The notes under the pieces were generated by a model that ran no database searches, was not told the origin of the DNA, and saw nothing but the letters and a program-made list of their open reading frames with translations. This document shows, one piece after another, positions 1-64,000 of a stretch of DNA of 64,000 bases. Origin of the DNA: Yamagishiella unicocca (taxonomy: Eukaryota; Chlorophyta; Chlorophyceae; Chlamydomonadales; Volvocaceae); NCBI GenBank assembly GCA_003116995.1, contig BDSL01000155.1, forward strand, positions 98,271 to 162,270, written 5' to 3'. Each line of letters starts with the position of its first letter. Position 1 is the first letter of the stretch. The translations under genes were made by a program, and so were the position numbers.

Positions 1-190
1 TTCCTCGCTTTTTTCCCCGTGCCTGCTTTGCCCTCCGCCCCTCTGTCCTCCTCCTCTTCCTTCCCCCCGCCTCCCTTTTCTCTCCGGCGCCCTTCGCCTC
101 GTTGTTCCGTTTCGTCTCCCTCTTTTTTCCGCTTGTTTTTTTTTTTTTCCCTGTTCTTCTCTCCCTCTCCCTTTTTCTCTCCCTCTCCCC

Positions 191-272
191 GGGTCGGTGC
201 CCGCGTGGTTCCTGGGGGCGGCTTGTCCCTCCGTTGCCTTCGTCTGCGTTGGTTCGCCTCCGCCTCGCCCCC
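191..272 (+). tRNA. trnY-GUA: tRNA-Tyr(GUA)
   Basis: Class II tRNA of 82 bases. With C read as A or C, the acceptor GGGTCGG pairs with TCGACCC (one G-U), and the T arm GTTGG/CCGAC closes on loop TTCGAAT at 253-259. The anticodon loop TTGTAAA gives GUA and sits on a 5-bp stem containing one G-U pair. The overall sequence closely follows plastid tRNA-Tyr, including the D-arm segment and the extra variable arm. As printed, with real C, several stems would be broken, so this gene is one of the best proofs of the recoding. Confidence 0.93.
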
Positions 273-993
273 CCCTGTTTCTTTCGCCCCCCGCGTCGTT
301 CTTCCCTCCGCTTTTGTTTCCTCCCCCCGCCTTGGCGTGCTTCCGCCCCCTCGCTTTCCGTTGCTTGCCCCTCCCTTCCTTCCTTTTTGCCGGTTGTCCC
401 TCCTTCTTTTTCTTTTTCCCGCCGGTCCCCGCTCTGTTCCTGTGCGTTGCCCCTTCCCCTCGTTCGTCCCCCCCTCCGTCCTTTTGTCCCGCCTCGCCGC
501 CCGGCGCCTTTTGCTTTTGCTCTGCCGCCCCTCCTGTTCGGGGTGTCCCTTTTTGCTCTGCGCCTCCCCCCGCTTCTTGCCCGTGGCGTCCCTTTTTTGC
601 GGTTTTTGTCCCCCGCCGCTTTCGTCGCTTCCCTCGGTCGCTCTGCCCTCTCCCTCTCCCCTCGGCTCTCCCCTCCGTTTTTGTCTCCCTTCTTTTTCCC
701 CGCGTTTTTTTTTTCCCCCGCTTCCCTCCGCGCCGGGGCTGTCTTTGTTTCCTTTTTTTTCTTCCTTTGGGTTCTTTGTTCCCCCCCCCCGTTTTTTTCT
801 GTTTTCTTCCCCCGCCGCCCTCCCGCCCCCCTTCCCCCCCCCGTTTTTTTTCCGCCCCTCCGCCGGGGCCTGCTTTTGCCTTTGGCCCCCTCCCCTCCTT
901 GTTCGCGGTCCCGCTCCTGCCTCTCTGTTGTTTGCCTTCCCCTCCCTTGCCCCCCCCCGTCCCCCTCTCTCCTTCTCTCTCCTGCTCGCTGCC
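273..993. other. Intergenic, trnY to trnQ
   Basis: Pyrimidine-looking spacer with short GC hairpins and homopolymer runs. I see no codon periodicity and no further tRNA arms. Confidence 0.6.
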
Positions 994-60401: not shown

Positions 60402-61886
60402 CCGGCGGTGCTCCGGGCCCCCTTCCCGTCGCCCTCCCTTGTTCCGCCTTCCCCCTGGTCCCTCGCCCTGCTTTCGGCGCCCCCCTCCCGCCGGTTCGGG
60501 TCCCGCCTTGGCGCCGCCCCCGCTTCCTGGGTGTGCCGGGCGGTGTGTCCCGCCCCGGGCCCGTCTTCCCCGCCCTCTCGCTGCCTGGCGCTTCCTCGCG
60601 CTTCCGGCTTCCTGTCGGCGCGTTGCCGCCTCCCCTCCGCCCTGCGGTTGGGTTCCCCGCTCCGCTCGCTCTCCCGCGCTCGCTTCTGCTTGTCCCCCCT
60701 TGTCTTTCCGTGTGCGCCCCGGGTGTCCGGGGCCTGCTGCCTTGCCGTCCTCCTCCCCTTCCTCCCGCTTCCACTGGCCGTCTCTTTCGCGCCCCCCTGG
60801 CCCTCCGCCGCGGGTTGCGCTCGTTCTGCGCCTTCCTCTCCCCTTCCCCGCCCGCGCTGCCGCCCGCCCTGCCCCCCTGTGTTCCCGCTCCCGTTGGGCC
60901 CCTTCCCTTTCTGGGCCGTTCTTGCCCTGTCCCCCCTGGTCCGGTTCTTCGCGTTGCCTCGCCTTCTCCCCCTCCTCCCCCGCTTGTGCGGGTCCCCGTC
61001 CCTTCCTTTGCGTTTCCCTCTTGCGCGCCCTCCTCCCCCGGCGGGCGCCTTCCCGCGTTCGCTCCCGCCCTGCTTGTGGCCGCCCTTCGTCTCCCTCGTT
61101 TCCGGCTGGGCCTCCTCGGGTCTCTCCTCCTCTTCGCTCCCCCCGCTTTCGTCTCTCCGTGTCCGTTTCGGGCCCCGCCGCGCGCCTTCGCCCCTGGTGT
61201 TCCTCCCCCTCTCTCCGCCTTTCCCCGCTCCCCTTGGCCTTCCCTCTGCCTCTCCCGTCCTCCCGCTCGTGCGTGCTCCCCTGCCGGTCCCCGGTTGCGC
61301 CCTGGTCTTTGCCCTTCGCCTTTCCGCGCCCCCTCCGCCGCTTTCCGCCCCCTCCTTCCGGCCCCCGCTTGCCCCCTCTGTCTTCCCGCGGCTGCTGGCC
61401 CCGCGTTCGCCGGTGCTTCTTCCTCCGCTCCCGTCCGCCCTTCTTCTCTGCGCCCCGCCGTTTCCGCCCCCCCGGCCTTCTTCCTGCCCGCGGCCTTGCT
61501 TCGTCCGGCTTGCGCCCCTTGCGCCCCCTTCCTCCCTGCTGCCTCCCGTCGGCGTCTGGGCCGTGTCTCCGTCCCCGTGTGGCTGCTCCTCCTCTCCGCC
61601 CCGCTCCTGCTCGTGGCCTTGGGCGGCCGTTCCCCCCCCCCGCTCCTCCGCCGCCCGCCCCTCTCTCGGTGGTTTTCCCCCTTTCCCTCCTCCGCTTTTC
61701 TGGGGTCTTCGCCCCGTTTCCCCCTGTTCTCCCCCTCCGCTCGGTCGGTTCTTCCGCGTTCCGCCCCCGTCCGCCCCTCCCCCTTCTTTCCCCCGGCCGG
61801 GGGCCCTGCCTGCCCTGCTCGTTCGCCTTGCCTGTGTTCGGCCTGCCGCCCGCGTTCGTCCTGCGCCCGGCTCCCCCTCTCCCTGG
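60402..61886 (-). rRNA. rrn16: 16S ribosomal RNA
   Basis: Small-subunit rRNA, first gene of the operon. The 5' end has AGAGTTTGATCCTGGCTCAG exactly (complement at 61861-61880). GTGCCAGCAGCCGCGG reads at about 61383-61400. The 3' end reads CTTGTAACGAAGTCG-like sequence near 60445, then GGATCACCTCCTT at 60402-60414, so the anti-Shine-Dalgarno CCUCC is intact. About 1,485 bases, uninterrupted. One surviving A, at 60773, falls in CCACTGGC, where other 16S genes do have A, so it is genuine rather than an error. Confidence 0.96.
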
Positions 61887-64000
61887 CTCCTCTTTCCCTT
61901 TCTGTCTTCCCCGCCGGGGCCGTCCTCCTTTGGCGGTCTCCCTCCCCTCCTTGCTTCTCCCTTCGTTCCTTCCGCTTTTTTTTCTCTTGCCCCTTCCCCG
62001 TGTTTTTCCTTTCCTTTTTCTCTTTTTTTTGTCCCTTTTCCTCTCCTCGTCTCTCCCTTTTTTTTTCTTTTCTTTTCTTCCTCCGGTTTTTTTCTTCCCG
62101 CGGCCGCCCCTCCCCGCCCCCCCCCCCCGGCCGCCCCGTTTGTTCCCCTTCGTTGTTTCGTTTGCCTCTGTTTTTTTCTTTCTTTTTTTCTTCGTCCCTC
62201 TTCGCGGGCCGCCGCCGCCTTCCTTTTTCTTCCCGTTTGTTTCTTGTCCCCTGCGGGTCCCCGGCCGCCCCGTCGTTTGTTTCTTGTCCCCTGCGGGGTC
62301 CCCGGCCGCCCGGGCCGCCCCCGTCGTTCTCCCGCTCTGCTTTCTCCCCCGGGCCGCCCCCGTCGTTTGTTTCCCTTCGTCCCTCTTCGCGGGCCGCCCC
62401 GTCGGCCCCCGCCGGGGCTTTTTCCCCCCGGGCCCCCCCCCTCCCTCCTTTTTTCTTCCGCCGGCCCGCAGGGGGTTCTCCTTTGGTCTCGTTTTTTTCT
62501 TGTCTTTTCTTCCTCTGGTTCCCCGCCGGGGCCCCGCCCCCCCCGGCCCCCGCTCCTTTTCCCCCTCGGGGCCTCGCCTTTGGTTTTTTTCTTTTCTTTC
62601 TTCCCCCCCCCCCGTTTTTTTTCCCGCCCTCCCCGCCCCCGTCCCCTCCGGGGTGTCCCGCTCCCCGCCCTTCCCCGCCGGGCCTGTTTTCGTCCCCGCC
62701 GGGGCGTTTGCCCTCGGCCCCCGCCGTCTTGTTTCCCTTCGTCCTTTCTTCTTCTTCCCTCGCCGCGGGCCGCCGCCCCCCGCCCGCCTCCCTCCCCTTC
62801 TTTTTGTTTCCCTTCGTCCCTCTTCGCGGGCCGCCCCGTCGTTCTCCGCTCTGCTTTCTCCCCCCCTTTTTCTTCCCTCGCCGCGGGCCGCCGGGCCCCT
62901 CTTTTCGTTCCCGCCGGGGCCCGCCCTCTTGCCTTCCCCTTTGTTTTTGCCTCCCCGCCGGGGCCTTTTTCTTCCTTTGGTTCCCCGCGCGGGGCCCCGC
63001 CCCCCCGCCTTTTTCTTCCCGTTTGTTTCTTCCTTTGGTTTTTTTTCTTCCGGCGGCCGCCCCTCCCCGCCCCCGTCCCCTTCGGGCCGGCCCCCGCCGC
63101 GGGCCGCCGGGCCCCCCTCCTTTGGTTTTTTTCTTGTCTTTTCTTCCTCTGGCCGCCCCCCCCGCGGCTCTTCCCCTCTGGGGCCCCGTCGCGCCCCCCC
63201 CCGCCCTCCCCCCTCGCCCCGCCGGGGGCCCTGTTGGTTCTTTCCCGTCCTCCTTTCCCGTCCTCCCGCCCCGTTCGTCTTTCTTTCTTTCTTTCTTTCT
63301 TTCTTCCTTCCTTCTTTTTTTCTTTTTTTTTCTTTCTTTTTTCCTCCCTTCCTCTTCTTCTTCCTCTTCCTCTTCCTCTTCTTCTTCTTCTTCCTTTCCC
63401 CCGGTTCCTCGTCGTCTTTCGGGCCGCCCCCCTTGTCTTCTCCCTTCCCCCCCTTTGTCCCTTCTCCCCTTCCTCGTCTCTCCTCTCTCGTTCCCTCTCG
63501 CCTCTCCTCTCTTTTCTCTTGTCCCTCTCTCTTTCTCTCGTCCTCTCCCCCCGGGGCCGTCCTTTCCCCGCCCCCTTTCTCTCTCCTCTCCCTCTCCTTC
63601 TTCTGCCCTCCCTCCCCCCGTCTTGCCTTTGGCCTCCTGTTTCCCTGCTTTTCTTCTTTTCTTGTCTTTTCTTCCTCTGGCCGCCCCCCCCCCTCTTGCC
63701 TTCCCGTTTGTTTTTGCCCTCGGCCCCCGCCTTTTTCTTCCCGTTTGTTTCTTGTCCCCTGCGGGGTCCCCCCGGCCGCCCCCGTCGTTTGTTTCTTGTC
63801 CCCTGCGGGGCCCCCCGGCCGCCCCGTCCCCTTCGGGCCGGCCCCCGCCGGGGCCGGCCCCCGCCGCGGGCCGCCGGCCCCCCCCGCTTTTTCCCCCCGG
63901 GCCCCCCCCCTCCCCCCCCCGGGGGCCGGCCCCCGCCGGGGCCTCCTGTTCCTTTGGGGCCTTTTCTTCTTTTTCCTCCCCCGGGGCGTTCCTTTCCTTC
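61887..64000. repeat. 16S upstream region with repeat block 13
   Basis: Spacer to 62060, then hairpin mosaic to 63240, a (TTTC)7 microsatellite at about 63278-63305 followed by CTTCTTCC purine/pyrimidine-like runs to 63400, plain spacer to 63640, and repeats to the window end. A surviving A lies at 62470. The rRNA operon promoter should be within the first few hundred bases but cannot be called through the recoding. Confidence 0.75.

Follow-up and report, generated by a model that had tools for sequence, protein, structure and literature searches.

The window analysed here is a 64,000-base stretch of DNA from the green alga Yamagishiella unicocca, the right-hand part (positions 98271-162270) of the 162,270-base contig BDSL01000155.1 (hereafter referred to as C155) in an assembly of 1415 contigs and 133,378,104 bases (GCA_003116995.1). 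It is a segment of the plastid genome in which almost every A is printed as C. Here we report that this plastome exists in the assembly in two strand-specific codings that decode each other, that the A was lost before consensus, that the loss strikes high-copy DNA, and that one repeat is present in the assembly both with its A and without them. The loss seems to be a technical fault and not biology. We place the probability of a sequencing artefact at read level, caused by a minor population of faulty long reads, at roughly 55%.

Near-complete loss of A from a plastid contig

The window contains 8 A, 11919 G, 21586 T and 30487 C. The original prediction, made from the letters of the window, was that every A is printed as C, and the near-complete loss is confirmed, although these eight A remain. 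It had also raised the question of whether the rest of the record lacks A, and this is so, with only 17 A across all 162,270 bases of C155, 10 of which lie within the first 3 kb or the last 5 kb. The large contig C1 has a normal base content at all eight loci fetched, and among 30 contigs sampled regardless of content (10 + 20), A is present in 28, the A-less ones being C1100 and C930. The features of the window are as follows.

1..64000, plus strand: A-less stretch in which C stands for A or C, as throughout C155
31278, 59200, 59414, 59461, 59719, 59728, 60773, 62470, plus strand: residual A, seven of the eight within 59200..62470 and the eighth at 31278
7904..9962, plus strand: psaB, range of tblastn matches
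13714..14997, plus strand: rbcL, range of tblastn matches; an opposite-strand copy lies on C228
25113..25346, plus strand: atpH, range of the tblastn match
38770..46998 (lower end approximate), no strand assigned: inverted-repeat copy in the opposite coding to its partner, C155:1 to ~8100
40072..40562, minus strand: psbA exon 2, with approximate ends obtained by extrapolating the tblastn matches
43149..43709, minus strand: psbA exon 1, with approximate ends
52284..52297, minus strand: 23S rRNA sarcin-ricin motif
60404..61880, minus strand: 16S rRNA, from the anti-Shine-Dalgarno (anti-SD) motif to the 27F motif

When C is allowed to stand for A or C, the best 40-codon windows match at 40 of 40 codons for atpH, psaB and rbcL, and at 35 of 40 for psbB, which lies on the minus strand of C155 outside the window; read as printed, or with G as A/G or T as A/T, the same four genes reach 24-28 of 40. 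Of the genes that the original prediction had read, psaB, rbcL and atpH are thereby recovered, as is psbA in the decoded inverted repeat described below. For psbD, petB, petD and psaC, the reading of C as A/C gives 18-23 of 40 codons on C155, and these genes were not found there under any reading.

The ribosomal RNA (rRNA) signatures return in the same way. We tested 14 motifs (eight from 16S rRNA, the anti-SD and five from 23S rRNA). Replacing A with C in the motifs gives exact matches for 9 of the 14, namely seven of the eight 16S motifs, the anti-SD and one of the five 23S motifs, two of the short ones also matching additional places on C155. Replacement of A by G gives none, and replacement by T gives one, the short anti-SD. 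The predicted return of the anti-SD and the 16S signatures is therefore observed; for 23S rRNA, the sarcin-ricin motif was recovered and the other four of the five motifs were not. Together, the gene windows and the rRNA motifs indicate that C represents A or C on the printed strand, and the plastid genes, the 16S rRNA and the psbA-bearing inverted repeat identify the window as chloroplast DNA. ARAGORN reports no transfer RNA (tRNA) in the window or in C155 as printed; the original prediction had expected annotation software to report few. Once the inverted repeat is decoded, a tRNA-Ser(gct) is found there.

Two codings of the inverted repeat

To compare A-less sequences, we used the two-letter alphabet {A,C}/{G,T}. 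After this reduction, an inverted repeat of C155 becomes evident, with positions 1 to ~8100 pairing with ~137040 to 145268. Viewed on the same strand, one copy has lost its A and the other has G in place of T, such that each copy supplies what the other lacks. When the two are combined, 8387 of the 8494 columns without gaps show one of the four permitted pairs, leaving 107 misfits (and 334 gap columns). Sixty-eight of these misfits fall beyond position 8000, in a forced part of the alignment at the end of the repeat; the 7928 columns before it have 39.

The decoded repeat carries psbA as two exons flanking a group II intron. The intron holds a reverse transcriptase/maturase-HNH open reading frame (ORF), which a frame break divides into two pieces. 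Against the public protein P0001, which carries the source label 'lgn' and may not derive from independent reads, one piece agrees at 379 of 379 resolved residues and the other at 200 of 201, with the single difference at the frame break. The code is therefore a plain change of A to C on the printed strand. Among the named relatives of the intron ORF are sequences from two green algae, Microspora and Microglena, as well as from Euglena. The true sequence can be reconstructed wherever both strands were assembled, save for run lengths.

Other ORF fragments of the decoded repeat resemble a C-5 cytosine DNA methylase (PF00145, E 1.4e-12, above the cut-off) and, weakly, the Rep_trans replication initiation factor (PF02486, E 1.4e-5, below the cut-off). 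These similarities may mark the insertion of a plasmid-like element into the plastid repeat.

Opposite strands assembled as separate contigs

Two other contigs represent the opposite strand of C155 along the length compared, with 4804 of 4875 ungapped columns fitting {A,C}/{G,T} for C228:12001-17000 and 3878 of 3917 for C1151:1-4000. Same-strand matches of C228 and C1151 to C155 are limited to short dispersed repeats. The psbA gene is further present on C166, C228 and C1151, within open frames of 779 to 42,675 codons, and the fetched parts of these contigs contain 0-1 A (C228 and C1151) or 0 to 55 A (C166).

Four genes show the same division. Each has one copy per orientation: rbcL on the plus strand of C155 and the minus strand of C228, psbB on the minus strand of C155 and the plus strand of C211, psbD on the plus strand of C166 and the minus strand of C284, and tufA on the minus strand of C166 and the plus strand of C194, where C211, C284 and C194 are classed as A-less from their long open frames and not from their letters. 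The remaining matches to these four genes are short and nuclear. Judged by rbcL, psbB, psbD and tufA, the plastome is assembled once per strand, and the sequences that entered the assembly must therefore already have differed by strand: the error follows the orientation of the sequenced strand, and both strands carry it separately.

Among the nuclear matches are five short psbD-like fragments on C7:1407899-1449071, spaced at 9-11 kb in otherwise normal sequence, which look like a plastid insertion repeated within the nuclear genome.

A-dependent shortening of runs

The opposite strand also serves as a ruler for run lengths. We pooled three contig pairs and left out runs longer than 12 or containing a misfit base. 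Pure C runs of 1-4 are shortened in 0-1% of cases. Mixed A/C runs, which in the actual DNA are not homopolymers at all, behave like homopolymers of C and are shortened increasingly with length, in 5% of cases at length 4 (n=301), 17% at 5 (n=210), 51% at 6 (n=113), 78% at 7 (n=80), 86% at 8 (n=50), 93% at 9 (n=27) and in all 39 of those of 10-12. At a fixed length of 5, the shortening rises with the number of A, from 0% with at most one A (n=25) through 11% with two or three (n=127) and 36% with four (n=61) to 51% with five (n=67); pure A runs are shortened in 23% of 153 cases at length 4 and, as just given, 51% of 67 at length 5. A was therefore misread as C, or missed, before consensus. That A behaved unlike C within runs points to a cause at the signal and not to a swap of letters.

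Affected DNA beyond the plastid

The original prediction had placed the fault in a plastid genome segment. The plastid is indeed hit, but mitochondrial DNA, ribosomal DNA (rDNA) and a high-copy repeat are hit too. The mitochondrial contig bearing cox1, C208, has no A across five overlapping fetched loci, whereas C21 is normal where it carries a nuclear cox1 fragment. A query with 18S rRNA returned normal copies plus many at 81-86% or 70% identity (among 40 scored of 52 candidates, which applies to all statements on 18S copies). In rDNA samples of 150 bases, C213, C300, C484, C508 and most of C428 are A-less or nearly so, and samples from C394 and C1005 are normal. An organelle-only cause is ruled out by the A-less rDNA and the repeat.

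Some contigs have further peculiarities. The rDNA contigs C213, C300, C366, C386, C483 and C508 each carry 18S matches in both orientations and are perhaps fold-back joins. The lengths of C394 (17500 b), C428 (17500 b), C1005 (2500 b) and C240 (25000 b) are exact multiples of 2500 and are out of order in an apparently length-sorted list, which suggests that these contigs were later cut in blocks.

The high-copy repeat is the one found on C1100 and C930. Compared with an A-less piece of it, 21 copies have 97-100% identity and 19 have exactly 85% (40 scored of 199 candidates), and its normal form has 28 copies at 100% and 12 at 99% (40 scored of 208 candidates). Two of the copies at 85%, on C913 and C350, which lie on opposite strands and are mutually identical, show C1100 to have C at 22 of 22 A and the same base at 128 of 128 other positions. 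A is thus genuine in the normal copies of this repeat within the same assembly. The 150 bases of the C1100 repeat have no match to C155, to the rDNA samples or to the fetched parts of C166 and C208. The spacing of two copies on one contig is 8041 b (C930), 8139 b (C568), 11,153 b (C578) or 27,488 b (C286), and none of the contigs listed for this repeat is among those listed for 18S. High copy number is common to the affected DNA, yet is not enough on its own to abolish A.

Origin of the A loss

We favour a minor population of faulty long reads, with almost all A on the sequenced strand either called as C or missed. Such reads from the two strands of a single molecule would no longer be alike, since a change of A to C on one strand is a change of T to G as seen from the other. 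Because the strands no longer resemble each other, they would assemble apart, giving the plastome twice. Among faulty reads, assembly depth would be reached only by high-copy DNA (that of plastid and mitochondrion, rDNA and the C1100-type repeat); other nuclear contigs would derive from good reads. The A-less contigs would have stayed in the record since they match no organelle reference. In some fluorescence-based single-molecule instruments, A and C share one colour and differ in how bright they are. If this distinction failed, which is a guess, A would turn into C, G and T would be spared, and dim A pulses within runs would be lost; a literature search on this point yielded nothing useful. 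Of the earlier claims, those of a technical fault and of C standing for A or C hold.

Several observations weigh against this explanation. On C428, A returns gradually, with 0-2 per sample to 14.7 kb and then 3, 9, 20/200, 29/150 and 57/200, the part where it rises being C428:15001-17500 (3/200 to 57/200), and a patch of C166 retains 53 of 693 true A; neither is predicted by a simple picture of two read populations. In C166, retained A are fewer after G (3/116) than after A (30/277), a difference given without a significance test, and they do not differ significantly between lone positions and runs (p=0.19) or between positions flanked by G/T and those beside A/C (p=0.11). A-less-looking 18S copies outnumber normal ones. 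We saw no opposite-strand mitochondrial cox1, membrane proteins being hard to find in that coding. Finally, we found no normal plastid or mitochondrial contig, only short nuclear fragments, and a minor population of bad reads, as we infer it, brings with it the extra assumption that normal organelle contigs were removed before deposit.

The main rival, possible but unlikely in our estimate, is a depth-triggered fault of read-correction or consensus software, which would change A to C in each sequence's own orientation at extreme coverage. All identified affected DNA is high-copy, no normal organelle contig was found, and A returns near the end of C428 and is enriched at the ends of C155. Against it, numerous contigs of this assembly hold clean normal copies of the high-copy C1100-type repeat. 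The change is confined almost wholly to A and nearly always gives C, and at a given length the runs rich in A suffer more shortening than those rich in C, a difference to which a relabelling step would be blind. Faulty consensus calling, as originally proposed, survives as part of this rival. Its companion proposal, a fault of base encoding or file handling in the finished record, is not supported. A text replacement of A by C in finished contigs would explain a near-perfect single-letter change, but it is contradicted by the opposite-strand contigs, the A-dependent shortening of runs and the gradient of C428; the swap is neither complete nor free of context, with the 17 A left in C155 and the partial A in C166 and C428, and run lengths were affected. 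We regard it as very improbable.

A modified adenine read as C by a single-molecule basecaller, whether natural, made by an adenine methyltransferase in vitro or derived from a modified control library, would likewise act at the signal, and the own-strand effect, the loss of A in runs and the incomplete stretches fit such a cause. Organelle DNA is naked and hence open to an added enzyme. No bacterial contaminant that could serve as a naked-DNA yardstick was evident with an EF-Tu query. We nevertheless consider a modified base improbable, given that this single assembly contains both the C1100-type repeat and rDNA in forms with A and in forms lacking it, so that not all copies can be modified; the plastid and mitochondrial contigs found occur in the A-less form only. 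Literature searches covering modified and methylated adenine together with nanopore sequencing or organelle DNA also turned up no such report. That the organelles and part of the high-copy nuclear DNA naturally carry a modified adenine at almost every A, read as C, is very unlikely.

Comparison with known systems and implications

In the Z-genomes of phages, 2-aminoadenine replaces adenine. Such a complete replacement would, as here, affect all A of either strand; in this assembly the C1100-type repeat also has normal copies and a modified base is unsupported, no search for a responsible enzyme having been made. In long-read assemblies, high-copy DNA gives extra small redundant organelle and rDNA contigs. 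The present contigs are likewise extra products of high-copy DNA, whereas their redundancy is split by strand and one base is missing. Nanopore basecalling errors occur at telomere repeats (PMC9414165). These are also systematic basecalling errors in long reads; they concern telomere-like repeats, whereas nearly every A over whole organelle genomes is affected here. We found no literature report of this A-to-C artefact or of this assembly.

The A-less contigs should evade organelle filters based on DNA identity. They inflate the genome and mislead scans of codon use, GC content and novelty, and their open frames reach an absurd 54,089 codons. A simple test would flag them: such a contig lacks one base and can be matched to its partner only after reduction to {A,C}/{G,T}. 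For the biology of Yamagishiella the interest is low, and the finding is useful as a case of data quality.

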